Positions 1-34,342 of a stretch of 64,000 nucleotides of DNA are shown one piece after another. The notes under the pieces are model-generated. The model was not told the DNA's origin. It made no database searches and was given only the letters and a program-made list of their open reading frames with translations. This stretch comes from Opitutaceae bacterium. GTDB taxonomy: Bacteria; Verrucomicrobiota; Verrucomicrobiia; Opitutales; Opitutaceae. The stretch covers positions 1 to 64,000 of the forward strand of contig JAHCAZ010000014.1 in assembly GCA_019634615.1 (NCBI GenBank). The letters run 5' to 3'. Within the stretch, counting starts at the first letter, position 1. The number at the start of each line of letters is the position of its first letter. The translations under genes and the position numbers were made by a program.

Positions 1-160
1 CTTCGTCGGCTGGTCCAACAACGACACCGGCTGGGAAGTCTACTCCGACCGCATCCGCCCGAACGTCCCCGAGCCCTCGACCTACGGCCTGGTCCTCACC
101 GCCGCCGGCCTTGCCCTCCTCGGCTGGCGCCGCTGGCGGGGCCGGGCGAAGGCGTGTTAA
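1..160 (+). CDS. PEP-CTERM sorting domain protein, C-terminal end (partial)
   Basis: The reading frame is open from base 2 to the TAA at 158-160, giving 52 residues of a protein that begins outside the window. The tail reads VPEPSTYGLVLTAAG, followed by a hydrophobic segment and an arginine-rich end (RRWRGR). This is the classic PEP-CTERM signal: a VPEP motif, one membrane span and a basic cluster. Such proteins are exported and processed by an exosortase, usually for surface or exopolysaccharide-associated display. The upstream domain cannot be seen, so the function of the protein is unknown. Confidence 0.85.
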   Translation, partial: FVGWSNNDTGWEVYSDRIRPNVPEPSTYGLVLTAAGLALLGWRRWRGRAKAC

Positions 161-196
161 AGGGTAAGGTATAAGGGGTAAGGGCGTAAGTGGCTT

Positions 197-268
197 GTAG
201 CAACGAGCGTGAGCGAGTGGGCGCTTGGCGTGCGCGGCACCTACCCACGCGCTCACGCTCGTGGCTAC
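197..268. repeat. Inverted repeat with GTAGC...GCTAC ends
   Basis: The left arm (197-221, GTAGCAACGAGCGTGAGCG...) pairs with the right arm (244-268, ...CGCTCACGCTCGTGGCTAC) with one or two mismatches. The loop is about 22 bases. It lies just downstream of the PEP-CTERM gene. Its GTAG/CTAC ends match the palindromes at 6391-6454 and 35604-35652. It could form a hairpin in RNA and act as a terminator, but there is no T-tract. Confidence 0.7.
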
Positions 269-337
269 CCGGCAGCGGGGCGGAATTTTGAACGTCCGGG
301 CCCCGGCTGCGTCTTACTGGGTGTTCGTCATCGTTCT

Positions 338-366
338 TTGCTTGGTTCATATGTTTGTAGTTTAGT
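338..366 (+). promoter_or_regulatory. Possible sigma-70 promoter for rsmE
   Basis: TTGCTT (338-343) and TTTAGT (361-366) are separated by 17 bases and lie in the only A/T-rich island upstream of rsmE. The match to consensus is partial (3/6 and 4/6), so this is a weak prediction. Confidence 0.3.
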
Positions 367-466
367 CGGCAAGGGCGTCGGACTTCGGTTCGGCGCCCTT
401 TCTGATTTTTGGGGCCGCGGAAAGACCCTCGACTCGGCCCGGGCCGGCGCCTTCATTCGGGACGCC

Positions 467-7269: not shown

Positions 7270-7349
7270 GACACTGCAATCCCTTTGCGACATCGCGAGC
7301 AAATATCCCTCGCGTAGGGTATACTCCTTACCAATTGGGTGCTAGGCGT

Positions 7350-8063: not shown

Positions 8064-8072
8064 GAGTCGGAG

Positions 8073-8172: not shown

Positions 8173-8185
8173 AAAAATCGCCCGC

Positions 8186-9163: not shown

Positions 9164-9233
9164 GTCGTTTTTGTCGGGGTGGCGGCCAGGCGGTTGGGAC
9201 GATAACCGTAGGACCGGCGGTGTGGTGCCGGCC

Positions 9234-9710: not shown

Positions 9711-9841
9711 GCGGAGGGAACCAAGGGAAGCCATCCCCGTCCCGGCGTCAACCCGCGGCCCGGGATATTTGGGCGGCCGGCCATGCAATCGGAAACGCAT
9801 TGAACCGCGCGCGCCGTTGGCGCTGACTAGCCGCTGCATCC

Positions 9842-10684
9842 ATGAACATCCGCAAGGCCCTGATCACCGCGGCCAACCCCCAACAGCGGCAACTGCCGCT
9901 GCAAATGCTCATCGGTCCGCAGGGCGAGGCGAAATCCGCCCTCCGGCTGCTCCTCGAGGAGGCCGCTGGCGCCGGCATCGAGGAGTTCTGCGTCGTCGTC
10001 GGTCCCGGCGACGAATCCGCCTTCGGCGAGGCCTGCGGCCCGCTCCGCAATCGCGTGCATTTCGCCGTGCAGCCCGAGCCGCGCGGCTACGGCCACGCCG
10101 TGCTCTGCGGCCGCGACTTCTGCGGCGATGCGCCCTTCCTCCACCTCGTCGGTGACCACCTGCCCGTCGCGACCGGCCAGGTGAGCTGCGCGCGGCAACT
10201 GATCGACATCGCGACCGCCCACAACTGCCCCGTCTCGGCGGTGCAACCCACGCGCGAGCATCTGCTCACGTCGTTCGGCGCGGTCGGCGGCAAGCTCGTC
10301 GGCGGTGAACTGCCGCTCTACCAGGTCGAGGCAGTCCTCGAGAAACCCACGCCCACGGTCGCCGAGCAGGAACTCCTCGTGCCCGGGCTGCGGGCCGGTT
10401 TCTTCCTCTGCTTTTTCGGTCTGCACGTGCTCGACGGCGAGATCTTCCGCCTGCTCGACGAGCAGCTGGTCGCCGCGCCCGACCGCCGCCTCAGCCTCTC
10501 CCCCGCCCTGCACGCCCTCGCCGGTCGCCGGCGCTACCTGGCGTTCACGGTCGCCGGGCAGCGCTACGACATCGGCGCGCCGTACGGCCTGCTCTTCGCC
10601 CAGCTCGCCCTCGCCCTGGCCGGTCGCGACCGCGACCCGGTGCTGACGCAGATCGTCGAACTGCTCGCCCAACGCCCGCGCTGA
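9842..10684 (+). CDS. GalU-like nucleotidyltransferase with an altered nucleotide loop
   Basis: The 280-residue protein follows the GalU (UTP-glucose-1-phosphate uridylyltransferase) plan: an N-terminal strand KALITAA, EEAAGAGIEEFCVVVGPGDE, QPEPRGYGHAVLCGRDF, a VGDHLP segment where the metal-binding aspartate should be, LEKP, and RAGFFLCFFGLHVLDGEIF. The glycine-rich loop normally reading AAGxGTRxLP is here AANPQQRQLP, and the KEML lysine motif is replaced by QMLIG. It may be a noncatalytic or altered-specificity relative. The stop lies three bases before the next ATG, so it is almost certainly cotranslated with the 1108-residue kinase/pyrophosphorylase fusion. Confidence 0.75.
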   Translation: MNIRKALITAANPQQRQLPLQMLIGPQGEAKSALRLLLEEAAGAGIEEFCVVVGPGDESAFGEACGPLRNRVHFAVQPEPRGYGHAVLCGRDFCGDAPFLHLVGDHLPVATGQVSCARQLIDIATAHNCPVSAVQPTREHLLTSFGAVGGKLVGGELPLYQVEAVLEKPTPTVAEQELLVPGLRAGFFLCFFGLHVLDGEIFRLLDEQLVAAPDRRLSLSPALHALAGRRRYLAFTVAGQRYDIGAPYGLLFAQLALALAGRDRDPVLTQIVELLAQRPR

Positions 10685-10687
10685 GCC

Positions 10688-13600
10688 ATGGCTCCGTCCC
10701 TCACCGCCATCATCGGCGGCGCCGACCCGGCGCTGCGCGACCTCGCCATCGACTCGTGGTGCGAAGGCAAGTCCACCGCCGCCCTGCTGCAGGCCGCCGG
10801 CGAGCTCGACGCCTACCGCAAGACCGAGACGAACCTCTACCACCGCGTCCGTGCGCTTTTCTTCCTGAGCGCGCTGCACCGCTATCACCTGCCCGCCCGC
10901 GCCGACTTCCCCCGCTCCGGCCGCATCCCGCACGAGGGCTTCACCCATCTGCTCGAGCGGCGCTTCGAGGAGGCCATCGGCAGTTTCCAGCGCGCCGCCG
11001 CCGCGGCCGGGCCCAGTGAAACCCTGTCCAGCGCCCTCGCCGCCGCGTATCACGCCCTCGCCTTCCAGACGCTCGCCGACCAGGTCCGCCGCACCGTGCG
11101 CTCCACCCGCGGCAACGCCTGGATGTTCCGCCTCGGCCATCCGCTCGACCAGCCGCTGCGCGTGCACCGCGACCTGCTCACGCGCCCCGCGCCCGACGCG
11201 CCGCTGCCGATCCTGCGTGAGAGCACCCCGGTGCGCATGGACCTCACCCACTGCGGCTGGAGCGACATCTTTTTCCTCGGGATGGATTTCCCCGAGGGCG
11301 CCCGCGTGCTCAATGTCTCGATCGACCTCGGCGTGCACGGCCGCGACGCCGCGCCCCAGCCGCCGGTCGAGGCGTACTTCCGGGTCATCGACGAGCCGGT
11401 CATCCGCCTCGCGAGCGTGGACCTCGAGGCCGAGGCCCGGCTGACGACGGTCGACGAGGTCTTCGATTTCGGTCGCGACTACCTCGGCCTGCTGAAGGCC
11501 GCCGTGATCGCCTCCGGCCTCGTGCCGCCCGGCATCGAGCGCTCCGGCACGAGCCTCGCCGACCTGCTCGCGCGCATCTTCGGCCCGGGCCGGGGTTTCG
11601 AGCTCGTCAGCAACGTCAACCGCATCCCGAAAGGCTCGCGCCTCGCCGTCTCGACGAACCTCCTCGGCGCGCTGATCGCCGCCTGCATGCGCGCCACGGG
11701 CCAGATCGGCTCGCTCACCGGCCCGCTGCGGGAGGGCGAACGCCGCATCCTCGCCGCGCGCGCCATCCTCGGCGAATGGCTTGGCGGCTCCGGCGGCGGC
11801 TGGCAGGACTCCGGCGGCCTGTGGCCCGGGATCAAGTTGATCGAGGGCGTGCGCGCCCAGCCCGGCGACGCCGAGCACGGCATCAGCCGCGGCTGCCTGT
11901 TGCCACGACACACGCTGCTCGGGACCGACCGCATCCCGCCCGCCGCCCGCGCGCGGCTGCAGGAATCCCTCGTCCTCGTCCACGGCGGCATGGCCCAGAA
12001 TGTCGGCCCCATCCTCGAGATGGTGACCGAGAAATATCTCCTCCGCGGCGTCGCCGAATGGGCCGCGCGCCGCCAGGCCAACGCCACGCTGGATCACATC
12101 CTCGGGCTCCTCAGCCGCGGCGACATCCGCGCCCTCGGCCGCGCCCTCACCGACAACTTCACCGGCCCGCTGCAGACGATCATCCCCTGGGTCACCAACC
12201 TCTACACCGAGCGGTTGATCGCGGATGCGCGCCGCGATTTCGGCGACGACTTCTGGGGCTTCTGGATGCTGGGCGGCATGTCCGGCGGCGGCATGGGCTT
12301 CATCTTCGATCCCAAGCGCCGCGCCGCGGCGCAGGCCCGGCTGCAGGAGATCATGCTCGCGGCGAAGCGCGACCTGCAGTCCGCGCTGCCTTTCGCGATG
12401 GATCCGGTGGTCTACGATTTCGCGGTCAACGAAAACGGCTCGACGGCCACGCTGCTGACCGGCCCGGGGGCCCTGTTGCCGGTCGGCTATTACCGGCAGG
12501 CGATCCCGCCGCTCCTGCGGCGCGAGGCCCGCGATCTCACCGGCCGCGAGCGCAGCGACCTGCAGCAGTTCACGCATGCCGCTCAGGCCCGGCCCGACTT
12601 CGCCGCGGCCCTGCCCGCGCTGCTGGAGCGCATGCTGCCCGTCGCCGCCGACCAGGCCGGCGCCGCCCGTGCTTTGGAAACGCTGCTGGCCGAAAACGGC
12701 TTCGATCCCGTCCAGCACGAGCAGATCCGCAACGACCTGCGCAGCGGCCGCATCGGCCTCGCCAGCAACCGCCTCCCGGCCACCACCCGCATCGAGGACG
12801 TGCACGAGGGCGATCTCACCGCAATCTCGTCCGGTCCCGCCGCCTGGCGCCGCGAGGGCGAAGCCGCGTTGCGCCGGGGCGAGGTGGCCGTGGTCACCTA
12901 CGCGGCCGGCGTCGGCAGCCGGTGGACCCAGGGTGCCGGCGTCGTCAAGGGTCTCCACCCGTTCGCCCGGTTTGCGGGGCGCCACCGCAACTTCATCGAG
13001 GTGCACCTCGCCAAGACCCGCCGTCTCGCGCGGCTCCATGGCGCCAGCCTGCCGCACATCTTCACCACCAGTTACCTGACCCACGAGCCCATCGAGCGCT
13101 TCGTGCGCCGCCTCGTCGGCGAACGCTGGGAGAAGGACGTCCGGCTCTCCTCCGGCCGCTCGATCGGCCTCCGTCTCGTGCCGACGGTGCGCGACCTGCA
13201 TTTCGCGTGGCAGGAGACGGCCCAGCAGCGCCTCGACGAACAGAAGGAAAAAGTCCGCGAGAGCGTGCGCGCCGCCCTCACCGGTTGGGCGCGCGGCCGC
13301 GGCGAGGCGGCCGACTACACCGACAACCTGCCGGGCCAATGCCTGCACCCGGTCGGTCACTGGTTCGAGATCCCCAACCTCCTCAAGAACGGCACCCTCG
13401 CCCGCCTGGTCGCCGCGCAGCCGCAGCTGCGCACCCTCCTCGTGCACAATATCGACACCCTCGGCGCCACGCCCGATCCGGCGGTGCTGGGCTGGTTCCG
13501 CGCCACGGGCGCCACGCTGGGCTGGGAAGTGATCGCCAAGCGCATCGAGGACCACGGCGGCGGCCTGGCGCGCGTGGACGGCCGCGTCCGCCTCGTCGAG

Positions 13601-16869: not shown

Positions 16870-18552
16870 ATGAAGACTCTCTCCCTCCTCGCCCTCCTTC
16901 TGCTCATCGCCGCCGGCGCCTATTTCGCCGGACGCCAGCATCACCATCATTCCTCCGCCGCGGCCCCGGCCGCGGGAGCCGCCGCCGCAGTCTACCAGTG
17001 CCCGATGCACCCGTGGATCAAGTCCGACCACGCGGACGCCAAGTGCACCATCTGCGGCATGGCGCTCGTCGCCGCCACCGGCGGTCCCGCCGCCGACCAG
17101 GCCGTCGATCCCAACCTCGTCACCCTCACCCCGGCCCAGGCCGCGGTGACCGGCGTGCAGACCGCGACCGTCACCCGCGGACCGCTCGTGCGCACGATTC
17201 GCGTCAACGGCGTGATCGACGACGACGACACCCGCCACCGCATCCTCGCCGCCCGTGTGCCCGGCCGCATCGAAAAGCTGCATGTCAACTATGTCGGCGC
17301 CGAGGTCGAGGCCGGCGCCCCGCTCGCCACCGTCTTCAGCCCCGAGATGCTCACCGCCCAGCGCACCTACGTCGAGCGCCTCAAGGGAGGCATCTCCTTC
17401 ACTGTCTCCGAACGCGCCCTCGCCCGCGAGCGCCTCCTCGAACTCGGGCTCACCGAGGAGGAAATCCGCATTCTCGAAGGCACGCTCCAGCCGACCGCGA
17501 TGGTCAACGTCCGCGCCCCGCTTTCCGGCACCGTCGTCTCCCGTTCGGTCTATGAGGGCCAATACGTCGAGACCAACGACCCGCTCTTCGAGATCGGCGA
17601 CTTCTCCCGCATGTGGTTCGTCTTCGACGCCTACGAACCCGACCTGGCCTGGATCAAGCCCGGCCAGACGGTCGAACTCACGGTGCCCTCGCTGCCGGGC
17701 CAGATTCTCACGGCGCCGATCACCTTCATCGATCCCAACCTCGATGCCAACGCCCGCACCGCCCGCGTGCGCGTGATCCTCGACAACGCCCAGCGCCTCC
17801 TCCTGCACAAGCAGACGGCCCAGGCCATCGTGCGCACAGAGTCACCGGAGACGCTCCTCGTCCCCCGTTCCGCCGTCCTCCAGCACGGCGGCAAGCCTGT
17901 CGTCTTCGTTGCCCGTGACGGCCACGCCTACAGCGCGCGGGAGATTCGGCTCGGCCGCAGCGGCGATCGCCACGCCGAGGTGCTCGCCGGCCTGCGCGAA
18001 GGCGACCGCGTCGTCACCGAGGGCGCCTTGATCCTCGACGGCCAGGCCCAGCTCGCCCACGCCGCCGTGGGTGGCGGCGACCACGACCACGGCACCGCCG
18101 CGCCGACACCCGTGTCTGTCGCCGCCCCGGAGCATGACGCCGCGGCCGTCGAGTTGCTGAAGGCCCTGGCCTTCGCCACGGCCGATGCCGCCGATGCGCT
18201 CGCAAGCGACGACCTCGCCGCCTACGAGCGGCACCTCGCCCACCTGCGCCCGGCCGCCGCCGCCTATGTCGCGGGCTTTGCCCCCGCCGCCCGCGGGCCG
18301 CTGGTCGGATTCGCCGACAAACTCGTGGCCGGGCCCGACCTCGACGCCGCCCGCCGCGCCTTCGAGCCGTTCAGCACCGCGGTCGCCGACGCCGCCCGCG
18401 CGGAACACCTCCACCACCGCGAGAAGCTCTGGATCTACCAATGCCCGATGACCCCCGTCCTCGGCACCGGCCGCTGGCTCTCGCGCCAACCCGAACTCCG
18501 CAACCCCTTCTTCGGCTCCGCCATGCTCGAGTGCGGCGACGAAGTGAACTGA
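16870..18552 (+). CDS. cusB: CusB-like periplasmic adaptor of a heavy-metal RND pump
   Basis: This 560-residue membrane fusion protein starts with a signal anchor (MKTLSLLALLLLIAAGAYFAG) and a His run. A heavy-metal-binding domain follows (YQCPMHPWIKSDHADAKC...CGM, about 41-66). The adaptor core is at about 80-400: lipoyl-like VPGRIEKLHVNYVGAEVEAG, alpha-hairpin with TAQRTYVERLKGG, and beta-barrel parts. A His-rich linker (GGGDHDHG) leads to a C-terminal DUF3347-like domain (about 424-560; EKLWIYQCPMTPVLGTG). This matches CusB/SilB adaptors of Cu(I)/Ag(I) efflux. The stop is seven bases before the CusA gene. ATG 16870 fits the signal sequence best. Confidence 0.9.
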   Translation: MKTLSLLALLLLIAAGAYFAGRQHHHHSSAAAPAAGAAAAVYQCPMHPWIKSDHADAKCTICGMALVAATGGPAADQAVDPNLVTLTPAQAAVTGVQTATVTRGPLVRTIRVNGVIDDDDTRHRILAARVPGRIEKLHVNYVGAEVEAGAPLATVFSPEMLTAQRTYVERLKGGISFTVSERALARERLLELGLTEEEIRILEGTLQPTAMVNVRAPLSGTVVSRSVYEGQYVETNDPLFEIGDFSRMWFVFDAYEPDLAWIKPGQTVELTVPSLPGQILTAPITFIDPNLDANARTARVRVILDNAQRLLLHKQTAQAIVRTESPETLLVPRSAVLQHGGKPVVFVARDGHAYSAREIRLGRSGDRHAEVLAGLREGDRVVTEGALILDGQAQLAHAAVGGGDHDHGTAAPTPVSVAAPEHDAAAVELLKALAFATADAADALASDDLAAYERHLAHLRPAAAAYVAGFAPAARGPLVGFADKLVAGPDLDAARRAFEPFSTAVADAARAEHLHHREKLWIYQCPMTPVLGTGRWLSRQPELRNPFFGSAMLECGDEVN

Positions 18553-18558
18553 CCCGCC

Positions 18559-21500
18559 ATGATCAACCGCATCATCACGTGGTCCCTGCACCACCGGTTT
18601 CTGGTTATCAGCGGCTTCCTCGCGCTGTGCGCGTGGGGTGTGCTTTCCATTCAGCGCGTGCCGATCGACGCGATCCCCGACCTGTCGGAAAACCAGGTCA
18701 TCGTCTATGCCGACTGGCCCGGGCGCTCGCCGCAGGAGGTGGAGGACCAGATCACCTACCCGCTCAGCGTCTCGCTCCAAGGCCTTGCCGGCGTGAAGAG
18801 CGTGCGCGCCACCTCAATGTTCGGGTTCTCGTTCCTGACCGTCATCTTCGAGGACCGCATCGATCCCTACTTCGCCCGCACCCGCGTGCTCGAGCGCTTG
18901 AACTCGCTCGGCGACACCCTGCCCGGCGGCGTCGCCGCCCGCCTCGGGCCCGATGCCACGGGCCTCGGGTGGGTTTACCAGTATTACCTCAAGGACGCCT
19001 CCGGCGCGCATGACCTGGGTTCGCTGCGCACGATCCAGGACACCTACGTCCGCTACCAGCTCGCCGCGGTGCCCGGCGTCTCCGAGGTCGCCAGCATCGG
19101 CGGCTTCGTCCGCCAGTGGCAGGTCGAGGTCTCGGCCCTCAAGCTGCGGCAATACGACGTCATGCTGGGCGAGGTCATGGACGCGGTCGCGGCCGCCAAC
19201 CTAAACGTCGGCGGCAAGACGATCGAGGAGAACGGCGCCGAGTACGTCGTGCGCGGCGTTGGTCTCGTCAGTTCCGCCGCCGACCTCGAGGCGATCGCGC
19301 TCAAGCCCCGCGACGGCAAGCCCCTGTACCTGCGCGACGTGGCCCAAGTGCGCATCGGCGGCGACTTCCGCCGCGGCGCGCTCGACGTCAACGGCCGCGC
19401 CGCCGTCGGCGGCATCGTCATCATGCGCTACGGCGAGAACGCCTGGCGCGTCATCCAGGACGTGAAGGCCCGACTCGCCGCGCTCGCCCCCGGCCTGCCA
19501 GCTGGCGTCACGGTCGAGCCGTTCTACGACCGGAGCGACCTCATCGCCCGGGCGATCGACACGCTCAAGCACGCGCTCACCGAGGAAATCATCCTCGTGA
19601 CCCTCGCGCACATCCTGTTCCTGTTCCATTTCCGCAGCATCCTGATCGTCACGCTGCCGCTGCCGGCCTCGATCTTGATCTCGTTCATCCTGATGGACCA
19701 GTTCGGCATCCCGTCGCATATCATGTCGCTGACGGGCATCGCGATCTCGATCGGCGTGCTGGTGGACGCCGGCATCGTGATGACCGAAAACGTCATCCGG
19801 CACTGCGAGCGGGCCGAGGGGGATCTCGGCCGGCGCCTCACCGGACCGGAGGTGTTCCAGCACACGTTGACCGCGGCCACGCAGGTCGGCCGGCCGATGT
19901 TCTTCTCGATGCTCGTGATCATCTTGGCCTTCGTGCCGGTGTTCCTGCTCACGGGCCAGGAAGGAAAGCTCTTTCATCCGCTCGCCTTCACGAAGTCCTT
20001 CGCCCTGATCGGCGCCGTGCTGCTCGCGGTGACGGCCGTGCCGGTGTTCTGCACCTTGCTCGTGCGCGGACCCTTCAAACCCGAGAGCGAAAACTGGCTG
20101 ATGCGGGCGCTGCTGCGCATCTACAATCCCGTCCTCGACTGGGCCTTCGTCCACCGCAAGACCGTGCTCACCCTCGCCGGCGCGCTGCTCGCGGTCTGCC
20201 TCGTGGTGGCCTTCGGTCTGCCGCGGAGCGTGAACGCCCGTCTCCCCGCCGCCGTCGCCAAGCACACCCAGGGTTTCGGCAGCGAATTCATGCCGACCCT
20301 CGAGGAGGGTTCGCTGCTTTTCATGCCGGTGCTCCTGCCTGCGACCTCGCTGACCGAGGTGCAGCGCATCATGGCCTGGCAGGACAAGGTCATGAGCGAG
20401 CACCCCGCGGTCGCCTCCGTCGCCGGCAAGCTCGGCCGCGCCGAGACCGCCACCGATCCGGCGCCGGTCGAGATGATCGAGACCACGATCATGCTGAGAC
20501 CCGAGCGCGAGTGGCCCGCCGGCACGACCAAAGCGTCCATCATCGCCGACCTCTCGGCGAAACTGATGAACGTCCCCGGCTACGTGCCCGGCTTCCTCCA
20601 GCCGATCGAGAATCGCATCCTCATGACAAGCACCGGCATCCGGGCGCAGGTCGGCGTGAAGATCTTCGGCGACAACCTCGACGCCCTCCAGCAGAAGGCC
20701 TTCGAGGTCGAGCGGGTGATCAACCGCATCCCGGGCGCCACCGGCGTCGCCCCCTCGCGGGTGCAGGGCAAGCCGTACCTCGAGGTCAGTGTCCGCCGCG
20801 GCGAACTCGCCCGCTACGGCCTAAGCGTCAAGGACGTGTTCGAGTACGTCGAGGCCGGCATCGGCGGCGCCACCGTCGGCACCACGATCCGCGGCCGCGA
20901 GCGCTGGCCGCTGCAGGTGCGCCTCGACGAGAGCGACCGCGGCGACATCGACCGGCTCGCCGACCTGGTGCTGGCGACGCCCTCTGGGGCGACGATTCGC
21001 CTCGGCCAGGTGGCCGACATCAAGCGCGTGGTTGGCCCCAACGAGATCGCGTCCGAGAACGGCCGGCTCCGCGTCTTCGTGCAGGCCAACGTGCAGGACC
21101 GCGACCTCGGCGGCTTCGTCGGGGAGATCAAGGAACGCGTCGAGCGCGAGGTGCGCCTCGATCCGGGCATGAGCCTCGAGTACTCCGGCCAGTACGAGCA
21201 CCAGCTGCGCGCGCGGCAGACGCTGCTGTATGTGTTCCCGGCGGTGATCCTGATCATCTTTGCCCTCCTGGTGATCACGTTCCGGTCGGTCGCCGAGGCC
21301 GCCCACGTGATCCTCGCGGTGCCGTTCGCCCTCACCGGCGGCGTGCTGCTGCAGGCCTGGATGGGGTTCAACTTCAGCGTCGCCGTGTGGGTCGGCTACA
21401 TCGCCCTCTTCGGCACGGCGATCCAGACCGGCGTCGTGATGGTCGTGTACCTCGAGGAGGCGGTCCAGCAGGCCCGCGCCGCGAAGGGCGCCGCGCTCGA

Positions 21501-21744
21501 CCGCGCCGATCTCCTCGCCGCCATCAAGGCCGGCGCCCGCCTGCGCCTGCGGCCCAAGGTCATGACGGTCGCGACCACGGTGGCCTCGCTGCTCCCGATC
21601 TTCTGGAGTAACCGCACCGGCGTGGAGATCATGCAGCCCCTGGCCGCCCCGGTGGTCGGCGGCATGCTGTCGAGCCTCGTGCATATCCTGATTGTCACGC
21701 CCGTGATCTTCGCGTGGCTTCGGGAGCGGAAACTCCGCCCCTGA
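18559..21744 (+). CDS. cusA: CusA-type Cu(I)/Ag(I) RND efflux pump
   Basis: The 1061-residue inner-membrane pump exports monovalent copper or silver using the proton gradient. It has the HME-RND layout with twelve membrane segments and two large periplasmic loops. In transmembrane helix 4 the sequence is SIGVLVDAGIVMTEN, as in the CusA/SilA group rather than the DFG-type of divalent-metal pumps. The three metal-relay methionines of CusA can be placed at EFMPTLEEGSLLFMP, PVEMIETT and NRILMTSTGIR (about residues 577, 635 and 687). It is coupled to the adaptor upstream; the sigma gene starts five bases after its stop. No outer-membrane channel gene is in this unit. Confidence 0.95.
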   Translation: MINRIITWSLHHRFLVISGFLALCAWGVLSIQRVPIDAIPDLSENQVIVYADWPGRSPQEVEDQITYPLSVSLQGLAGVKSVRATSMFGFSFLTVIFEDRIDPYFARTRVLERLNSLGDTLPGGVAARLGPDATGLGWVYQYYLKDASGAHDLGSLRTIQDTYVRYQLAAVPGVSEVASIGGFVRQWQVEVSALKLRQYDVMLGEVMDAVAAANLNVGGKTIEENGAEYVVRGVGLVSSAADLEAIALKPRDGKPLYLRDVAQVRIGGDFRRGALDVNGRAAVGGIVIMRYGENAWRVIQDVKARLAALAPGLPAGVTVEPFYDRSDLIARAIDTLKHALTEEIILVTLAHILFLFHFRSILIVTLPLPASILISFILMDQFGIPSHIMSLTGIAISIGVLVDAGIVMTENVIRHCERAEGDLGRRLTGPEVFQHTLTAATQVGRPMFFSMLVIILAFVPVFLLTGQEGKLFHPLAFTKSFALIGAVLLAVTAVPVFCTLLVRGPFKPESENWLMRALLRIYNPVLDWAFVHRKTVLTLAGALLAVCLVVAFGLPRSVNARLPAAVAKHTQGFGSEFMPTLEEGSLLFMPVLLPATSLTEVQRIMAWQDKVMSEHPAVASVAGKLGRAETATDPAPVEMIETTIMLRPEREWPAGTTKASIIADLSAKLMNVPGYVPGFLQPIENRILMTSTGIRAQVGVKIFGDNLDALQQKAFEVERVINRIPGATGVAPSRVQGKPYLEVSVRRGELARYGLSVKDVFEYVEAGIGGATVGTTIRGRERWPLQVRLDESDRGDIDRLADLVLATPSGATIRLGQVADIKRVVGPNEIASENGRLRVFVQANVQDRDLGGFVGEIKERVEREVRLDPGMSLEYSGQYEHQLRARQTLLYVFPAVILIIFALLVITFRSVAEAAHVILAVPFALTGGVLLQAWMGFNFSVAVWVGYIALFGTAIQTGVVMVVYLEEAVQQARAAKGAALDRADLLAAIKAGARLRLRPKVMTVATTVASLLPIFWSNRTGVEIMQPLAAPVVGGMLSSLVHILIVTPVIFAWLRERKLRP

Positions 21745-23757: not shown

Positions 23758-25815
23758 ATGACACACGATCACTCCTCCCCCACCCACCCTCACGCCGGAC
23801 CAGACCAGCCGGACACGCCCGCGCCCGACGAACTCGTCTACATGGGCCTGCCGCACGAGCGCTACCTGCGCCCGCGGTTCTATGTCGCCGTCGCCCTCAC
23901 GCTGCCGGTGCTGTTCCTTTCGATGACCCCGATGGTCACGCACGAGATCTACGATTGGATGACCATGCACCAGTCGGCGTGGCTGCAGGCGATCCTGACC
24001 ACGCCCGTGTTCTTCTGGGCCGGCTGGCCGTTCATCCGCCGCTGGTGGAAGTCCATCGTCGAGCGCGACACCAACATGTTCACGCTGACGGTCACTGGCA
24101 CCGGCGCCGCGTATTTCTTCAGTCTCGCCGCGACGATCTTCTGGTACCGGTTCCCCGCCGAGTATTTCACGCACCACGGCGGCCCGATCTATTTCGAGGG
24201 CACGGCCTTCATCACGACGATCGTGCTGCTAGGCCAGATCCTCGAGCAGCGCGCCCACGCGCGCACCGATGCCGCCATCCGCGCGCTCATGGACCTCGCC
24301 CCCAAGACCGCTCACCGCCAGCGCGCCGACGGCACCGAGGAGGACGTGCCGGTCGCAGACGTGCAACCCGGGGACAACCTGCGGGTGCGGCCCGGCGAGC
24401 GTCTGCCGGTGGATGGTGTTCTCGCTGCGGGCGCGGCCGAGGTCGACGAATCGATGTTAACTGGCGAACCGCTCCCGGTGGCCAAGACCGCCGGTGACAA
24501 GCTCAGCGCCGGCTCACTCAACACCACCGGCACCTTCGTCTACCGCGCCGAGCGCGTTGGCGCCGACACGCTGCTGGCGCAGATTGTCCGCCTCGTCGAG
24601 CAAGCCGTCGAGAGCGAGGCCCCCATCGCCCGCCTCGCCGACCGCGTCTCTGCGTGGTTCGTGCCCGCCGTGCTCGCGATCGCCGTCACCACCTTTTTCG
24701 CCTGGGGCCTGCTCGTCCCGGACCGCGGTTGGCTCATGGGCCTGTTGAACGCCGTCGCCGTCCTCATCATCGCCTGCCCCTGCGCCCTCGGCCTCGCCAC
24801 GCCTGTCTCGCTCGTCACCGGCATCGGTCGCGGCGCGCAGGCCGGCGTGCTGGTCAAGGACGCCGCCGCGCTCGAGCACTTCGCCGCCGCCGACACGCTG
24901 CTGATCGACAAGACCGGCACGTTGACGGCCGGACGGCCCGAGGTCGTGGCGGTGCTGCCGGCGTCAGGCGTCAGCCAAAGCGAACTGCTCACGCTCGCCG
25001 CCGCCGCCGAATCCGCCAGTGAGCATCCGCTGGCCCGGGCGATCGTCGCCGCGGCCCAGGCACGCGGGCTCAGTCTGCCGGCCGCCACGGAATTTGTCGC
25101 AGAGCCGGGATTTGGGGTTCGCGCGATGGTCGGCGGACGCCGCGTCGCCGTGGGGCGCGCGCCGATCCCGGCACGTCCGGAGGCCGTGCCCTACCCCCTG
25201 AGCGCAACCGTGGTGGCGGTTACGGTGGACGCAGGCGAGATCGGCACCTTGGCGCTGGCCGACACGGTCAAGCCCACGACCCCGGCGGCGATCGCGGAGC
25301 TGCAGCGTCTCGGCCTGCGGGTTGTGATGGTCACGGGCGACCGCGAGGAATCGGCGCGCGCCCTGGCTGCCGAGCTTCACCTCGACGGTTACCATGCCGG
25401 CGTCACGCCGGCGCGGAAGCAGGAACTGGTACGCGAACATCAAGCCCGTGGCGAAAAGGTGGCTTTCGCCGGCGACGGCCTGAACGACGCCCCCGCGCTC
25501 GCGGCCGCCGACACCGGCATCGCCATGGGCACCGGGACCGACGTCGCCATGCACAGCGCCGGCATCGTGCTCGTGAAGGGCGACCTGCAGGCGCTCGTGC
25601 GCGCCGTGCACCTGAGCCGCGCCGTGATGCGCAACATCAAGCAGAACCTCTTCTGGGCCTTCGCCTATAACACCCTCGGCCTGCCCCTCGCCGCTGGCCT
25701 GCTTTACCCGCTCTTCGGCTGGCTCCTGCAACCGATGGTCGCCGGCGCGGCGATGAGCATCAGCTCGATCACGGTCGTCTCCAACGCGTTGCGGCTGCGG
25801 CGGTCGAGGCTCTAG
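23758..25815 (+). CDS. Copper-translocating P1B-type ATPase
   Basis: The 685-residue pump exports Cu(I) or Ag(I) from the cytoplasm using ATP. It has the metal-path motif CPCALGLATP, phosphorylation site DKTGTLTAG, phosphatase loop TGEPLPV, and hinge GDGLNDAPALAAADTGIAMGTG. The N-terminus lacks any HMA domain; instead it has a short His-rich tail (MTHDHSSPTHPHAG). Eight membrane helices are expected. The CPC motif argues for copper/silver over zinc/cadmium. It would deliver metal to the periplasm, where CusBA-type systems remove it. Length is typical for HMA-less copper ATPases. Confidence 0.93.
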   Translation: MTHDHSSPTHPHAGPDQPDTPAPDELVYMGLPHERYLRPRFYVAVALTLPVLFLSMTPMVTHEIYDWMTMHQSAWLQAILTTPVFFWAGWPFIRRWWKSIVERDTNMFTLTVTGTGAAYFFSLAATIFWYRFPAEYFTHHGGPIYFEGTAFITTIVLLGQILEQRAHARTDAAIRALMDLAPKTAHRQRADGTEEDVPVADVQPGDNLRVRPGERLPVDGVLAAGAAEVDESMLTGEPLPVAKTAGDKLSAGSLNTTGTFVYRAERVGADTLLAQIVRLVEQAVESEAPIARLADRVSAWFVPAVLAIAVTTFFAWGLLVPDRGWLMGLLNAVAVLIIACPCALGLATPVSLVTGIGRGAQAGVLVKDAAALEHFAAADTLLIDKTGTLTAGRPEVVAVLPASGVSQSELLTLAAAAESASEHPLARAIVAAAQARGLSLPAATEFVAEPGFGVRAMVGGRRVAVGRAPIPARPEAVPYPLSATVVAVTVDAGEIGTLALADTVKPTTPAAIAELQRLGLRVVMVTGDREESARALAAELHLDGYHAGVTPARKQELVREHQARGEKVAFAGDGLNDAPALAAADTGIAMGTGTDVAMHSAGIVLVKGDLQALVRAVHLSRAVMRNIKQNLFWAFAYNTLGLPLAAGLLYPLFGWLLQPMVAGAAMSISSITVVSNALRLRRSRL

Positions 25816-28356: not shown

Positions 28357-28740
28357 GTGAAGTTCGTCTCGCTGCTCCTGCTGGCGCTCTGGCTGCCGGT
28401 CACGCTGCATTGCCAGCTCGAGGCGGCCGATCTTTGGCCGGAGCACGACGACCATGCCGCCACGGCGTGCTGCACGCCTCAGCAAGGATGCATGAAGGAT
28501 GCCTGCGGCGTCCTGGAAGGCGATGCCCTCCGCACCGCCGACAACTTCACGCGAGGCCCGCTGCCGGTGCCTTTTGTCTGCCTTTGCCTGATCTGTTTCC
28601 GCCCGGCCGAGCCGGTGATCCTCGCCGCCCCCGTGCCGGAGCAGGTGGCTTTTCGTCAGGCCCTCGCGTGGGTCCCAACCTGGCATTTTGCCCGCCGGGC
28701 CGCGCCCTGGTCGGGCGCCCCTTCGCTGACTGTCGCCTGA
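28357..28740 (+). CDS. Small secreted Cys-containing protein preceding the second efflux operon
   Basis: From GTG 28357 the product has 127 residues: a signal peptide (KFVSLLLLALWLPVTLHC), then a His/Cys segment (EHDDHAATACCTPQQGCMKDACG), a second hydrophobic stretch with CLCLICF, and a tail rich in Ala/Pro. I recognise no family. The start is uncertain; GTG 28345 is an alternative, and the frame is open to 28270 inside a repeat. Position and composition parallel the secreted Cys-rich protein at 16407, so both may be periplasmic metal binders belonging to their efflux operons. Confidence 0.55.
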   Translation: MKFVSLLLLALWLPVTLHCQLEAADLWPEHDDHAATACCTPQQGCMKDACGVLEGDALRTADNFTRGPLPVPFVCLCLICFRPAEPVILAAPVPEQVAFRQALAWVPTWHFARRAAPWSGAPSLTVA

Positions 28741-28760
28741 TCAGTCCCTGCGCGGACTGA
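28741..28760 (+). terminator. Hairpin after the small secreted protein gene
   Basis: TCAGTCC and GGACTGA form a perfect seven-base-pair stem around CTGCGC, immediately after the TGA stop. There is no T-tract, so it may be an attenuator or RNA-processing stem rather than a full terminator. Confidence 0.4.
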
Positions 28761-28774
28761 CGGCCTACTGTTCC

Positions 28775-28793
28775 CACGGTGCGTCGCACCGTG
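28775..28793. promoter_or_regulatory. Perfect dyad upstream of the outer-membrane factor gene
   Basis: CACGGTGCG-T-CGCACCGTG is a perfect nine-base inverted repeat with a one-base centre, 54 bases before the ATG of the TolC-like gene. Size and position suit an operator, but it could also be a short genomic repeat. Confidence 0.4.
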
Positions 28794-28847
28794 TACCTGC
28801 CGCGGACCGATGTGTCCGGGCTTCTGCCATTACCCTTCCTTTCCGTC

Positions 28848-30125
28848 ATGACCTTTTCCCCTTCCCTCGTCCGCCCGCTCTGCGGGCTTCTCCTGCTGAC
28901 CGGCCTCCTGCGCGCGGAGCCGGCCGCCGCGCCGGTTCCCCTGGAGGAACTGGTCGCGGACATCCTCGCGCAACATCCCGAGCTCGGCTTTTACGAGGCC
29001 GAGATCACCGCCGCCCGGGCCGGTGTGCGCACCGCCGGCGCCCGCGCCAATCCCGAGCTCGCGCTCGACCTCGGCCGCCGGCGCGTCACCGATCCTGCCG
29101 GCGTGCTGGCCGGGGAAGGCACCGCCTGGGGCGTGTCGGTCACCCAGACTTTCGAGTGGCCCGGGCGGATCGCGCTGCGCAAGGCGCTGGCCAGCCAGCA
29201 GGTCGAGCTCGCCGAGCTCGGCCTCGCCCGCTACCGCGCCGCGCTCGCCGCCCGCGCCCGGCAACTCGCCTTCAATCTTCACGCTGCCGGTGAGAAGAGC
29301 GCCGCCGTGCGCGAGGTCGCCGACCGCTTCGCCGCCCTCAAGGCGATCTTTCTCGCCCGCGAACCCGCCGGGCTCACGCCCCTGCTCGAGACCCGCGTCA
29401 TCGAGGCGCAGGAGCTCGCCCTGCAGCGCCGCGCCACCGCCGCCGCCCTCGCGGCCAATGCCGCTCTCGTGGAGCTAAACCAACTGCGCGGCCAACCCGC
29501 GACGGCACCTCTCCAAGTGACCGTCGCCGCCAGCCGGCCGCAAACCGCGCCCGCCGCGGCGGAACTGCTCGCCGCCGCCCGTGAGCACAACTTCGACTTC
29601 CGTGCCCGCCGCGTCGAACTGGAACAGCAGGGCTTCGTCGTCCAGCTTGCACGCCACGAGCGCAACCCCGGCTTCAGCGTGAGCCCCTATTACTCGCAGG
29701 CCCGGGCCGGTGACAAGGAGCAGAACTTCGGCATCGGTCTCTCCCTTCCCCTGCCCACTCCGGCTGGCAGCGCCGCGACCGATGCCGCCCGCGCCCGCCA
29801 TCGTCAGGCCGAGGTCGCCGTCGTCGTCGCCGAACGCGAACTCGAGCGCGCCGTCCTCACCGCCGCGCAGGCCTACGCGGCCAAGGTCGCGGAAATGCAG
29901 CGCTGGGCGCCCGACGCCGTGGAGCAGTTCCGCGAAGCCGCCGCCCTCGCCGACCGGCATTACCGTCTCGGCGCCGTGCCCATCGGCACCTACGTCGAGC
30001 TCCAATCGAGCTACCTCGACGCCGTCGAGGCCCTGCTCGACACCCAGGCCGAGGCCCTCGCGGCCGCCCTCGAACTCAACCAACTCACCGGCCTCGACCT
30101 CGGCCGCCTCGGAGTCACGCCATGA
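28848..30125 (+). CDS. TolC/CusC-family outer-membrane efflux channel
   Basis: The 425-residue product has a signal peptide (RPLCGLLLLTGLLRAEP) and the long helical repeats of outer-membrane factors: LVADILAQHPELGFYEAEI..., TQTFEWPGRIALRKALA, and a second repeat ending RHYRLGAVPIGTYVELQSSYLDAVEAL-like. This matches CzcC/CusC family channels. It is the only outer-membrane factor in the island, so it may serve both RND pumps. The stop TGA overlaps the ATG of the mini-adaptor gene (ATGA), indicating translational coupling. ATG 28848 fits the signal peptide. Confidence 0.9.
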   Translation: MTFSPSLVRPLCGLLLLTGLLRAEPAAAPVPLEELVADILAQHPELGFYEAEITAARAGVRTAGARANPELALDLGRRRVTDPAGVLAGEGTAWGVSVTQTFEWPGRIALRKALASQQVELAELGLARYRAALAARARQLAFNLHAAGEKSAAVREVADRFAALKAIFLAREPAGLTPLLETRVIEAQELALQRRATAAALAANAALVELNQLRGQPATAPLQVTVAASRPQTAPAAAELLAAAREHNFDFRARRVELEQQGFVVQLARHERNPGFSVSPYYSQARAGDKEQNFGIGLSLPLPTPAGSAATDAARARHRQAEVAVVVAERELERAVLTAAQAYAAKVAEMQRWAPDAVEQFREAAALADRHYRLGAVPIGTYVELQSSYLDAVEALLDTQAEALAAALELNQLTGLDLGRLGVTP

Positions 30126-30580
30126 AGACACTTTTTCCGTTGATCCCGCTCGCGCTGCTCGCCGCCGTTCTCGCTGGGTGCAGCCCCACCCACGCCGAGG
30201 ATGACCACGAGCACGCCGCCGAGGCCACCGCAGCCCACTACAAAGAGGGCCACGGTGTCCGCCTTTCACCCACCGCCGCCGCCTTCGTGGGCCTGGCCAC
30301 CGCGGAGGTCGCGGTTCAATCCGTCGGTGCCGCCGGCGAGGTTCCCGCCATCCCCGTCGCCGCGCTCCTGCGCACGGTCAAGGGCGACTTCGTCTTCGTG
30401 GCCAACGGCGAATGGTTTCTCCGCACCCCCGTGACGGTCGGTGCCGCCCACGGCGATTGGCTCGAGATCCGCGAAGGCCTCTACGAGGGCGACATCGTGG
30501 TCAGCGCCGGCGCCCAGGCCCTCTGGCTCGCGGAGCTCCAGGCCGTCAACGGAGGCGTCGGCTGCGCCGACGGACACTGA
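30122..30580 (+). CDS. Mini-adaptor lipoprotein lacking the lipoyl and hairpin domains
   Basis: The 152-residue product is a lipoprotein (lipobox LAGC, cysteine 20). After a His/Asp/Glu-rich stretch (EDDHEHAAEATAAHYKEGH) comes HGVRLSPTAAAFVGLATAEV, resembling the N-terminal part of CzcB adaptors. It is joined directly to VPAIPVAALLRTVKGDFVFV...VGAAHGDWLEIREGLYEGDIVV, resembling their C-terminal membrane-proximal domain. The 200 or more residues that normally form the lipoyl, alpha-hairpin and barrel parts are missing. The frame is intact and overlaps both neighbours (ATGA with the channel gene, TGATG with the pump gene), so it does not look like a decaying gene. How it would bridge pump and channel is unclear. 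Confidence 0.78.
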   Translation: MKTLFPLIPLALLAAVLAGCSPTHAEDDHEHAAEATAAHYKEGHGVRLSPTAAAFVGLATAEVAVQSVGAAGEVPAIPVAALLRTVKGDFVFVANGEWFLRTPVTVGAAHGDWLEIREGLYEGDIVVSAGAQALWLAELQAVNGGVGCADGH

Positions 30581-33500
30581 TGCTCAACCGCATCATCGAC
30601 TTCTCCCTGCAGCGGCGGGGCTTCGTGATCTTCGCCACGCTGCTCCTCGTGGTCGCGGGCGTGTGGTCCGCCACGCGCGTCGCCATCGACGCGGTCCCCG
30701 ACATCACCAGCCCGCAGGTCCAGATCAACACCCCGGTCGCCGCCCTCGCTCCCGAGGAAACCGAGACCCTCGTCACCGTCCCCATCGAGATGGAGATGTC
30801 GGGCCTCCCGGGCCTGACCGAACTGCGCTCGCTCTCGAAGTTCGGCCTGTCGCAGGTGACGATGACCTTCCACGACGGAGCCGACATCTACCGTTTGCGG
30901 CAGCTCGTGACCGAGCGGCTCGCCCACGCGCAGGAACGCCTCCCCGCCGGCATCGTGCCCAGCCTCGCCCCGATCAGCACCGGGTTGGGCGAAATCGTCT
31001 ACTACACCGTCCGCTACCGGGCCGATGCCGCGGATCGTCCGGCCGACCGTGCCGACCAATTGCGCGCCCTGCGGCAACTGCACGACTTCACGATCAAGCC
31101 GCTCCTCCGCGCCACGCCCGGCCTCGCCGAGGTCAACGCCATCGGCGGCTACGAGCGGCAGATCGTGATCGAGCCCGATCCGCGCAAACTGACCGACGCC
31201 GGCGTGAGCTTCGACCAGCTCGCCGAGATCGTCGCCCGCAGCACCGAGAACGCCGGTGGCGGCCTGCTCGAGCTTGGGGCCGAGGCCATTGTCGTCCGGG
31301 CCGACACCCGGGTTCGCACGCTGGAGGACCTGGCCAACCTGCCCGTCAAATTCGTCGGCGCCGCCCACCCGCTGCTCGTCCGCGATCTCGCCTCGGTCGG
31401 CATCGGCTCGGCCGTGCGCACCGGCGCCTCGACCGAGGATGGCGAGGAGACCGTGACCGGCGCCGCCGTGATGCTCGCCGGCGAGAACAGCCGCCTCGTG
31501 GCCCGCGCAGCGGTCGCCCGCCTCGAGGAAATCCAGGAGAAGCTGCCGCCCGGCATCGAGCTGCGCTTGGTCTACGACCGCTCCGACCTGGTGCACCGCA
31601 CCATCCGCACGGTGAGCACCAACCTCTTCGAGGGCGCCGTGCTCGTGGCCGCCATTCTCTTCGCCCTGCTCGGCCACTGGCGCGCCGCGCTGATCGTGAC
31701 CCTCGCGATCCCGCTCGCTTTTCTCTTTATGCTCACCGGCATGGCGCAGGGTCGGATCAGCGCCAACATCATGAGCCTGGGCGCGATCGACTTCGGCCTG
31801 ATCGTGGACGGCTCGATCGTGATGGTGGAGCACATCCTCCGCCGGCTTTCCGGCCGACAGCAGGACCTCGGCCGGCCGCTCGCGCCGGCGGAGCGGCTTG
31901 CCGAGGTGCGCACGGCGGCCCACGAGGTCGCGCGGCCGATGTTCTTCGGCGTCCTGATCATCTTGCTCGTCTATGTCCCCGTCCTCGCCCTGTCGGGCAT
32001 CGAGGGGAAGATGTTCCGGCCCATGGCGCTGGCGGTGATGCTGGCCATCGGCGGCGCCCTGGCGCTGGCGCTGACCCTGATGCCGGTGCTGTGCGCCCGG
32101 TTCCTCACCGGCGGCCTGAACCATCGCGAAAGCTGGCTCATCCGGGTCGCCCGCGCCGTCTATACGCCCCTGCTCGGTTGGGCGCTGCGGGCGCGCACCC
32201 TCGTCGTCGCGGGGTCCATCGTGCTGATTGCGGTCGCCGGCTGGCAGTTCTCGCGCCTCGGCGCCGAGTTCATCCCGCAGCTCGACGAGGGCGCGATCGC
32301 GATCCAGATGATCCGCGGCAACAGTGTCGGCCTCGCCGCCTCCGTCGATCTGCAGCGCCGTTCCGAGCGGCTCCTGCGCGAGAAGTTCCCCGAGGTCAGC
32401 CATGTGTTCGCGCGGCTTGGCACGGCCGAGATTGCAATGGATCCGATGGGGCCCAACACCTCCGACACCTACGTCTTCTTCCACCCGCGCAGCACCTGGC
32501 GGACGATCAACGGCCGGACCGTGACCAGGGCGGAGCTGGTGGAACTCATCCGGGACGAACTCGCCGCCACCATTCCGGGCCAGACGTACCTCTTCACGCA
32601 GCCCGTGCAGCTCCGGTTCAACGAGATCATGGCCGGGGCGCGGGCCGATCTCTCCCTCAAGATCTACGGCGACGATTTCGCCGAGCTCGAGCGCCTCGCC
32701 GCCGCCGCCCGCGACGTGCTGCGAGGGATCCCGGGCGGGGGTGACGTGGAGTTCGACGCCCTCGGTCGCCTGCCCGTGCTCGAGGTCACGGCGCAACGGG
32801 CGAACCTGCAGAAGCTCAATCTCCACGCCGACGAGATCAACCGCGTCGTCGCCACCGCCCTCGGCGGTCGCGAGGCCGGCACGCTGCCGGAGGGCAGCCG
32901 GCAGATCCCGGTTGTCGTGCGCCTGCCGGAAACGCGCCGGCTCGACGTGGCCGCACTCGGCGACCTGCCGGTGCGGACCGACGAGGATGACGGCGTGCAG
33001 GTGCCGCTGCGCCGGCTGGCCGACCTCGCGGTCGTCGACCGCATCGGGACGATCACCCGCGAGGACACCCAGCGCCGCGTGGCGATCCTCATCAACGTCC
33101 GTGGTCGCGACACCGAGGGCTTCGTGCGCGAGGCCGACGCCGCCCTGCGCCGGTCCCTGCCGCTGCCTCCGGGCTACACGTATGCCTTCGGTGGCCAGTT
33201 CGAAAACCTGCAGGCCGCCCGCGCCCGCCTGGCGCTCATCGTCCCGGCGGCGCTCGCCCTGATCTTTGGGCTGATCTACGCGACCTTCGGCAGCGCGCGG
33301 CAGGCAGCAGTCATCTTCGTCTGCGTTCCGCTGGCGGCGGTCGGCGGCATCGCGGCGCTGTGGCTGCGGGGCTTGCCGTTCACGATCCCGGCGGCGGTGG
33401 GCTTCGTCGCGCTCTCCGGCATCGCGGTGCTCAACGGCATCATGCTGTTGAGCTTCATGAACCTGCTCCGCCAGCAGGGACACAGCGTGCGCGACGCCGT

Positions 33501-33723
33501 GATCGAGGGCACCCTCACGCGCCTCCGGCCGTTGCTCATGACCGCCCTCGTCGCCTCGGTGGGCTTCGTGCCGATGGCGCTCTCGACCGGCCCCGGCGCC
33601 GAGGTGCAGCGACCACTCGCGACCGTCGTCATCGGCGGCATCGTCACCGCCACGCTGCTCACGCTCGTGGTCCTGCCGGTGCTTTACGACTGGATCGAAA
33701 GCAAAACGAACCGAACCCTTTAA
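30580..33723 (+). CDS. CzcA/CnrA-type divalent-metal RND efflux pump
   Basis: This 1047-residue inner-membrane RND pump belongs to the heavy-metal efflux group. Helix 4 reads IDFGLIVDGSIVMVEH, with the DFG...D...E acidic residues typical of CzcA/CnrA-like pumps for Zn, Co, Cd or Ni. That differs from the CusA at 18559, whose helix lacks DFG. The periplasmic segments SRLGAEFIPQLDEGAIAI and RFNEIMAGARADLSLKIYG also follow the CzcA pattern and lack the CusA methionines. Which metal is carried cannot be decided. Start ATG 30580 overlaps the mini-adaptor stop. The TAA stop is the first part of a family B repeat. Confidence 0.93.
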   Translation: MLNRIIDFSLQRRGFVIFATLLLVVAGVWSATRVAIDAVPDITSPQVQINTPVAALAPEETETLVTVPIEMEMSGLPGLTELRSLSKFGLSQVTMTFHDGADIYRLRQLVTERLAHAQERLPAGIVPSLAPISTGLGEIVYYTVRYRADAADRPADRADQLRALRQLHDFTIKPLLRATPGLAEVNAIGGYERQIVIEPDPRKLTDAGVSFDQLAEIVARSTENAGGGLLELGAEAIVVRADTRVRTLEDLANLPVKFVGAAHPLLVRDLASVGIGSAVRTGASTEDGEETVTGAAVMLAGENSRLVARAAVARLEEIQEKLPPGIELRLVYDRSDLVHRTIRTVSTNLFEGAVLVAAILFALLGHWRAALIVTLAIPLAFLFMLTGMAQGRISANIMSLGAIDFGLIVDGSIVMVEHILRRLSGRQQDLGRPLAPAERLAEVRTAAHEVARPMFFGVLIILLVYVPVLALSGIEGKMFRPMALAVMLAIGGALALALTLMPVLCARFLTGGLNHRESWLIRVARAVYTPLLGWALRARTLVVAGSIVLIAVAGWQFSRLGAEFIPQLDEGAIAIQMIRGNSVGLAASVDLQRRSERLLREKFPEVSHVFARLGTAEIAMDPMGPNTSDTYVFFHPRSTWRTINGRTVTRAELVELIRDELAATIPGQTYLFTQPVQLRFNEIMAGARADLSLKIYGDDFAELERLAAAARDVLRGIPGGGDVEFDALGRLPVLEVTAQRANLQKLNLHADEINRVVATALGGREAGTLPEGSRQIPVVVRLPETRRLDVAALGDLPVRTDEDDGVQVPLRRLADLAVVDRIGTITREDTQRRVAILINVRGRDTEGFVREADAALRRSLPLPPGYTYAFGGQFENLQAARARLALIVPAALALIFGLIYATFGSARQAAVIFVCVPLAAVGGIAALWLRGLPFTIPAAVGFVALSGIAVLNGIMLLSFMNLLRQQGHSVRDAVIEGTLTRLRPLLMTALVASVGFVPMALSTGPGAEVQRPLATVVIGGIVTATLLTLVVLPVLYDWIESKTNRTL

Positions 33724-33893
33724 CCACGGATTTCACGGATGACACGGATATAGCGAATGAAGCCGGGAGAGATGGCCAAAAAAGGCACAGAAGGCGCAAA
33801 AGCAGGACCCAAATTCTGTGCCTTTTGCGCCTCTTGTGGCCATCCCACCATGCTCCATCCGCCGGATCCGTGAAATCCGTGTAATCCGTGGTT
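33722..33893. repeat. Family B inverted repeat after the CzcA-like gene
   Basis: The outer arms are AACCACGGATTTCACGGAT... and ...ATCCGTGTAATCCGTGGTT. The inner arms are GGCCAAAAAAGGCACAGAAGG and CTGTGCCTTTTGCGCCTC...GGCC. The two nested pairs give a cruciform-like structure of about 170 bases. The first bases (TAA) are the stop codon of the pump gene. Related copies: 39818-39992, 42921-43134 and 44099-44287. Confidence 0.85.
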
Positions 33894-33907
33894 CAAAAAC
33901 GATCCCT

Positions 33908-34342
33908 ATGAAAACAATAACCATCCTGATTTCCTTCCTCCTTGCGGTCGCGGCCGCCAGCGCAGCCGAAACGACAGTCGCAGGTCCCAAGGGCGGGCGG
34001 ATGTTGATCGCCCACCCGGTTCGGGCCGAGTTCTTCGTCACGACCGAGCGCCGGGTCGAGCTCTCATTCTTTGATGAAGCGGGTAAAACGGTTTCACCGG
34101 GTACCACCGCCGTGACCGTGACCGCCGAAACCACGGGCGGTCGCGTGGCCGTGCCGCTCGTGTCGCAGGACGCCACGCTCGTGTCGGTCGAGCCGCTGCC
34201 GCCAGGCGACCCCTACCGCGTCGTGGTGCAGGTGCGGTCCGCGCCGGGCGCTCGACCGAGCAACTTCCGGATCGAGCTCAATCTCCACGAATGCGGCGAG
34301 TGCCAGCGGGCGGAATACGCCTGCACCTGCGCCAGCCACTAG
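33908..34342 (+). CDS. Small secreted metal-island protein with a Cys-rich end
   Basis: The 144-residue product has a signal peptide (MKTITILISFLLAVAAASA) and a beta-rich body beginning VAGPKGGRMLIAHPVRAEFFV. It ends HECGECQRAEYACTCASH, with five cysteines and two histidines in the last 20 residues. The opening GG(R)ML...aEFfV pattern is shared with the His-rich lipoprotein at 36337 ([18 protein letters not shown]), suggesting one fold. I recognise no named family. Probably a periplasmic metal-binding partner of the efflux operon upstream. Start ATG 33908 lies 15 bases after a family B repeat. Confidence 0.72.
   Translation: MKTITILISFLLAVAAASAAETTVAGPKGGRMLIAHPVRAEFFVTTERRVELSFFDEAGKTVSPGTTAVTVTAETTGGRVAVPLVSQDATLVSVEPLPPGDPYRVVVQVRSAPGARPSNFRIELNLHECGECQRAEYACTCASH

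Follow-up and report, generated by a model that had tools for sequence, protein, structure and literature searches.

A predicted single-domain periplasmic adaptor encoded between channel and heavy-metal RND pump in Opitutaceae

How adaptor proteins join an RND pump to its outer-membrane channel has long been argued, with tip-to-tip bridging on one side and direct contact on the other. In RND systems, the membrane-proximal domain (MPD), the β-barrel, and the lipoyl domain of the adaptor contact the pump, and its α-helical hairpin reaches the channel (PMC3807786, PMC4446572). CusB of E. coli, which partners a metal RND pump, has all four of these parts, and CusB adaptors contact each other via their barrel and lipoyl domains (PMC3807786). 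The CzcB/ZneB-type adaptors of CzcCBA systems are encoded in the order channel, adaptor, pump, and they too have further periplasmic domains in addition to the C-terminal one. Reduced adaptors are also known. A 180-residue SilB construct (5a4g), comprising the N-terminal metal site and the MPD, is a man-made cut from a full adaptor. BesA of Borrelia burgdorferi is a natural one, reduced from the tip, and its operon also encodes a channel and a multidrug pump; it lacks the hairpin only and keeps the lipoyl domain, the barrel, and the MPD (PMC3807786). The tip-to-tip model has been described as facing perhaps its biggest challenge in BesA (PMC4446572), whose lipoyl domain has been proposed to take over the contact with the channel (PMC3807786).

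The locus described here goes beyond BesA: its adaptor has also lost the lipoyl domain and the barrel, and no adaptor gene at all is present in close relatives. It lies in a stretch of 64,000 nucleotides from an Opitutaceae bacterium, hereafter the window, and consists of a five-gene unit on the forward strand (window 28357-34342; Table 1). At its center is a 152-residue frame, the mini-adaptor, encoded with an RND pump and an outer-membrane channel (OMF). The stop codon of the channel (TGA, 30123-30125) overlaps the ATG of the mini-adaptor (30122-30124) in the sequence ATGA, and the mini-adaptor stop (TGA, 30578-30580) shares its last base with the ATG of the pump (30580-30582) in TGATG. An earlier, sequence-only reading had pointed out this frame and its overlapping stop and start codons on both sides, and its coordinates proved exact. 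A frameshifted full adaptor can be discarded, because the reading frames flanking both junctions are those of the channel and of the pump.

Table 1. Genes of the mini-adaptor unit, the separate full-length adaptor of the window, and related operons that lack an adaptor gene
Feature	Coordinates	Strand	Remarks
Small exported or membrane Cys/His-containing protein, 127 aa, GTG start, first operon gene	window 28357..28740	+	Homologues directly 5' of channel gene elsewhere
Outer-membrane channel, CzcC/TolC-family OMF, ~425 aa	window 28848..30125	+	Pfam OEP 3.7e-32
Mini-adaptor, 152-aa predicted lipoprotein	window 30122..30580	+	Signal (Cys20), acidic/His linker, predicted complete MPD (~41-143), Cys/His tail
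CzcA/CusA-family heavy-metal efflux RND pump, 1047 aa	window 30580..33723	+	TIGR00914 1185.5 bits, cut-off 701.45
Downstream small exported protein, 144 aa, predicted Ig-like CopC/CrdA-type fold	window 33908..34342	+	Conserved tail with C-x2-C and CxC; similar to N-terminal domain of fuller CzcB-type adaptors
Full-length CusB-type adaptor, 560 aa, separate CusBA pair, outside mini-adaptor unit	window 16870..18552	+	HlyD_D23 3.4e-57
Adaptor-less heavy-metal operon	L154 (G035) 7061-11502		
Adaptor-less heavy-metal operon	L155 (G034) 5522-11576		
Adaptor-less heavy-metal operon	L156 (G030) 668-5094		

The partners are easily placed. The pump passes the TIGR00914 threshold and thus belongs to the HME-RND (CzcA/CusA) class; its nearest solved structures are ZneA and then CusA. 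The OMF is 55-67% identical to those of the family's other operons, whether these have a mini-adaptor, a barrel form, or no adaptor, and a sequence search of the PDB gave no match for it. The first gene encodes a protein of no known family (a Pfam search gave no match), and its homologues immediately precede the channel gene in mini, barrel, and adaptor-less operons alike. Elsewhere in the window, no adjoining channel gene was recognized for the CusB-CusA pair (16870-21744), the sole channel gene recognized within 10000-36000 being that of the mini-adaptor operon, and a P-type metal ATPase is encoded at 23758-25815.

What is the mini-adaptor? Its N-terminus is a signal peptide with the lipobox LAGC (Cys20), so that the protein is probably exported and lipid-anchored. 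A short acidic, His-containing stretch follows, then ~100 residues of adaptor-like sequence and the tail GGVGCADGH. The N-terminal His residues are not kept in every member, and the C-terminal Cys tail is. TIGR01730 matches at its C-terminal end only (model positions 246-313 of 322), and the score of 36.7 bits for the whole protein is under the curated cut-off of 94.9; the NCBIfam model TIGR00999 likewise matches at its C-terminal end (196-268 of 271), and no adaptor domain was found with Pfam. An AlphaFold2 model built from 12 sequences has a pLDDT of ~90-97 over residues 41-140. With VIA-align, residues 43-143 of this model superpose on CusB 79..396 from the CusBA crystal (3ne5) with Z 14.3 and 1.9 Å over 101 residues; the scores for further structures are 12.6 for ZneB, ~10 for BesA, and 8.1 for the SilB construct, which is also the best sequence match in the PDB (E 1.8e-7). 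The partial TIGR01730 match, the predicted fold, and the CusB superposition thus converge on an MPD.

The range of the CusB chain covered in this superposition indicates that both the N-terminal strand and the C-terminal part of the MPD are kept, with a short linker in place of the central part. The barrel, the lipoyl domain, and the hairpin are nested between these two parts, and hence all are gone. The lipoyl domain and the hairpin were found neither by Pfam and NCBIfam nor in the AlphaFold2 model. As for the barrel, the linker joins the N-terminal MPD strand directly to the rest, and in one homologue (L091) it is shortened still further; ~240-aa relatives have ~85 further residues, which match the barrel part of adaptor models. 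The sequence-only reading was right about the missing lipoyl and hairpin parts, but it overlooked that the barrel is missing too and that the MPD alone remains. On the strength of the model, the mini-adaptor is a natural single-domain periplasmic adaptor, namely a predicted CzcB/CusB-type MPD minus barrel, lipoyl domain, and hairpin.

Set beside the described systems, the mini-adaptor has the same MPD fold as CusB, including the separate N-terminal strand, and likewise a metal RND pump as partner, but a short linker stands where CusB has its whole center. The SilB construct has nearly the same layout, yet it is an artificial fragment, whereas the mini-adaptor is a natural gene product. With BesA it shares the natural reduction and the operon with channel and pump, and with the CzcB/ZneB-type adaptors the gene order, a homologous C-terminal domain, and a CzcA/ZneA-type pump; the further periplasmic domains of the latter are missing.

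The short form is not a peculiarity of one genome. Among 252 genomes of the Opitutaceae, a sample dominated by MAGs, 22 from 11 genera carry it, with matches along most of its length and 23 copies in all, and full-length homologues with 57-67% identity at the same operon slot argue that the mini-adaptor is no product of chance. The order small protein, channel, mini-adaptor, pump, and downstream protein recurs in nearly all genomes with a long enough contig; one mini-adaptor operon (G202) gave no match to the downstream protein. A genome from another family of the phylum (G306) has a short form of 137 aa, apparently without a lipobox, together with a pump and the downstream protein. The occurrence of the same short form between channel and CzcA-type pump genes in other genomes, which had been suggested as a check, is thereby established for the 22 Opitutaceae genomes and one other verrucomicrobial family. 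Purifying selection acts on the mini-adaptor in close pairs (NG86 dN/dS 0.12-0.27), and the constraint is weaker than that on the pump (0.05-0.12). The matches on cyanobacterial plasmids that were opened are not short forms; they are C-terminal matches to proteins of ~550 aa. The carriers of the reduced adaptor are soil and water bacteria.

The mini-adaptor is one member of a graded series. In the clade of reduced pumps, the orthologous slot holds the ~150-aa form, a ~240-aa form, or nothing, and no full adaptor was found there. The larger form, present in other Opitutaceae as proteins of ~235-250 aa, matches barrel plus MPD, without lipoyl domain or hairpin, and similar forms occur in other families (G481, G514, G340, G427). 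The genome of the window itself has a second channel-adaptor-pump operon (G000:C19, L041 2742-3449) with a 235-aa adaptor of this type, so that two stages of reduction coexist in one cell. At the far end are three genomes (G034, G035, G030) in which the channel and CzcA pump genes share 4 bp and no gene separates them (Table 1). Profiles of the adaptor and of the downstream protein have no match in these operons, the sole adaptor match being the neighboring CusBA of G030. A fourth genome (G032) resembles them, on a poor contig. Overlapping TolC and CusA/CzcA genes, with no adaptor between, are also annotated on plasmids of Sphingomonas and Polymorphobacter (L199, NZ_CP155750.1, 2748-7171; L201, NZ_CP080242.1, 4688-9201), so this layout is not confined to Verrucomicrobiota. 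Together, the adaptor-less relatives and the sphingomonad plasmids suggest that this type of pump can do without a bridge.

In a tree of 37 pumps, those of the mini-adaptor operons form one clade (100/100), its sister being two barrel-form pumps (100/100). The reduced clade as a whole, comprising mini, barrel, and adaptor-less operons, is also supported at 100/100, and the pumps with full-length adaptors fall outside. The nearest of the latter (L137-L139) have adaptors of 422-432 aa, which on our reading of their sequences would be hairpin-less, the two lipoyl halves being directly joined. The full-length CzcB-type adaptors of other related pumps (L142-L145, L189-L191) appear to be built the same way, and thus to be BesA-like. 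The most parsimonious account has the lipoyl domain lost once, early, when the hairpin was already gone; the barrel was lost once, and a separate branch lost the whole adaptor once. The sequence-only reading had left room for a simple deletion product, with relatives keeping a full-length adaptor in the slot; this is ruled out by what the slot holds and by the retention of the short form at the orthologous place in many genera. Its proposal of a new minimal adaptor architecture is supported by this conservation, by the single clade of pumps, by purifying selection in close pairs, and by the confidently predicted stand-alone MPD fold. Beyond that reading, the barrel is lost as well, the adaptors form a graded series, some relatives have no adaptor, and a separate downstream protein resembles an adaptor N-terminal domain.

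The last gene of the unit deserves attention in its own right. Its product has a conserved GPKGGR motif after the signal peptide and conserved Cys pairs at its end, and the N-terminal domain of the fuller adaptors of L137-L139 begins with GPHxGRLL. When the downstream protein was compared with this domain by hhalign, the score was 35.3 and the probability 78%; controls gave at most 14.6 in 20 column shuffles and 16.7 against the rest of the same adaptors. This is moderate evidence that the two have a common origin. The model of the protein, made from 5 sequences only, has a pLDDT of 82-91 over the core and an Ig fold of the CopC/CrdA kind (Z ~10; other Ig-like proteins are matched as well). 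CrdA of Helicobacter pylori, part of the CrdAB-CzcBA efflux system (PMC12319023), has a similar Ig-like fold (Z 10.2), but only the fold is in common: identity is low (13%) and the tails differ. Could the downstream protein be the missing barrel? This was rejected, because its model has the CopC/CrdA-like Ig fold and its resemblance is to the N-terminal domain of fuller adaptors and not to the rest of them. It occurs with mini and barrel adaptors and is absent from adaptor-less operons, a distribution that would suit a protein working together with the adaptor remnant.

Turning to the pump, no compensating insertion of more than 3 residues is present in comparison with pumps that have fuller adaptors; a deletion of 9-10 residues near residue 804 is common to mini and barrel pumps with respect to L137-L139. 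In the alignment with ZneA the pump retains one aspartate, which we take to belong to the ZneA metal site, and the motif QLRFNE is presumably of the CzcA kind. Judged from these residues, divalent Zn, Co, Cd, or Ni would be a likelier substrate than Cu(I)/Ag(I).

How could such a system work? An MPD alone cannot form the adaptor tunnel, so the channel would either touch the pump directly or be coupled to it in an unsealed manner. Docking and regulation would be possible for an MPD-only protein, and walling a tunnel would not. This, together with the lack of any pump insertion that would make up for the lost domains, leads us to favor, with modest confidence, a metal-handling, activating MPD subunit that docks on a CzcA pump meeting its channel without an adaptor tunnel. 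The mini-adaptor would sit on the periplasmic (porter) face of the co-translated pump, in the way that the MPD of CusB docks on CusA. Together with the CopC/CrdA-like protein, and by means of its conserved Cys/His tail, it may capture metal or hand it to the pump and switch the pump. The co-translated channel would then contact the pump directly or receive ions without a sealed adaptor wall.

A wider account is conceivable, and we put it forward tentatively: a lineage of heavy-metal RND pumps may have shed its adaptor tunnel in steps, beginning with the innermost part (hairpin, then lipoyl domain, barrel, and finally everything), pump and channel coupling directly. The last remnant would be a pump-docked MPD with a detached metal-binding domain, in a machine made of two components plus a regulator.

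Adaptor sharing is known for TolC systems, and a full-length adaptor of HAE or HME type from another locus might build the tunnel, leaving the mini-adaptor as an extra subunit that tunes the pump or the delivery of metal. There is no shortage of candidates: all 14 genomes checked have other RND adaptors, with 14 to 34 TIGR01730 matches each, and, as the CusBA pair of the window has no recognized adjoining channel gene, channel sharing is possible. However, no common partner emerges. The sequence-only reading had offered the mini-adaptor as an accessory of the CusB at 16870, and this does not hold in general, because a clear orthologue (at least 56% identity) is present in 8 of the 21 short-form genomes checked; the other 13, including the single-contig G017, have only distant or partial CusB matches. 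Moreover, G034 has no adaptor gene closer than ~8 kb to its adaptor-less operon, and in the vicinity of the G035 operon the only one belongs to another pump-adaptor pair, which lies on the opposite strand and has its adaptor gene ~8 kb away from that of the channel. We regard an adaptor supplied from elsewhere as unlikely.

Less likely still is that channel and pump form no complex, the pump moving metal within the periplasm or from cytoplasm to periplasm, the channel acting separately, and the MPD protein regulating the pump. Such an arrangement would agree with the lack of a recognized bridging domain in any protein of the operon, and with a pump that shows no compensating insertion. Yet the channel gene remains next to the pump gene, in many cases overlapping it, across the reduced clade even where the adaptor is gone, and this persistence argues for a close partnership. 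That the mini-adaptor is a degenerating, functionless remnant is very improbable: it is reduced with respect to its homologues, and some relatives have no adaptor gene at the slot, but it is kept across 11 genera with intact core, invariant residues, and tail, the close-pair dN/dS is that given above, and the tight coupling is retained.

The preferred picture of a pump-docked MPD bears on the old dispute about bridging. Taken as a whole, these operons suggest that the usual bridge is dispensable for some metal pumps, and they make two points testable, namely whether an RND pump can act together with its channel when no bridge is present and what use is made of an MPD alone. No earlier description of MPD-only or adaptor-less RND systems was found in the open-access literature, which is weak evidence of novelty.

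Two further observations can be added. The mini-adaptor operon is also present in a MAG labelled Nevskiales, of the Gammaproteobacteria (L083, WYBE01000047.1); the pump encoded there has an Opitutia copy as its sister, which points to horizontal transfer or to misbinning. Near another pump, a 116-aa protein (L042 162-512) matches the C-terminal end of the window CusB only (505-560, 50%), and it is perhaps another detached adaptor domain.
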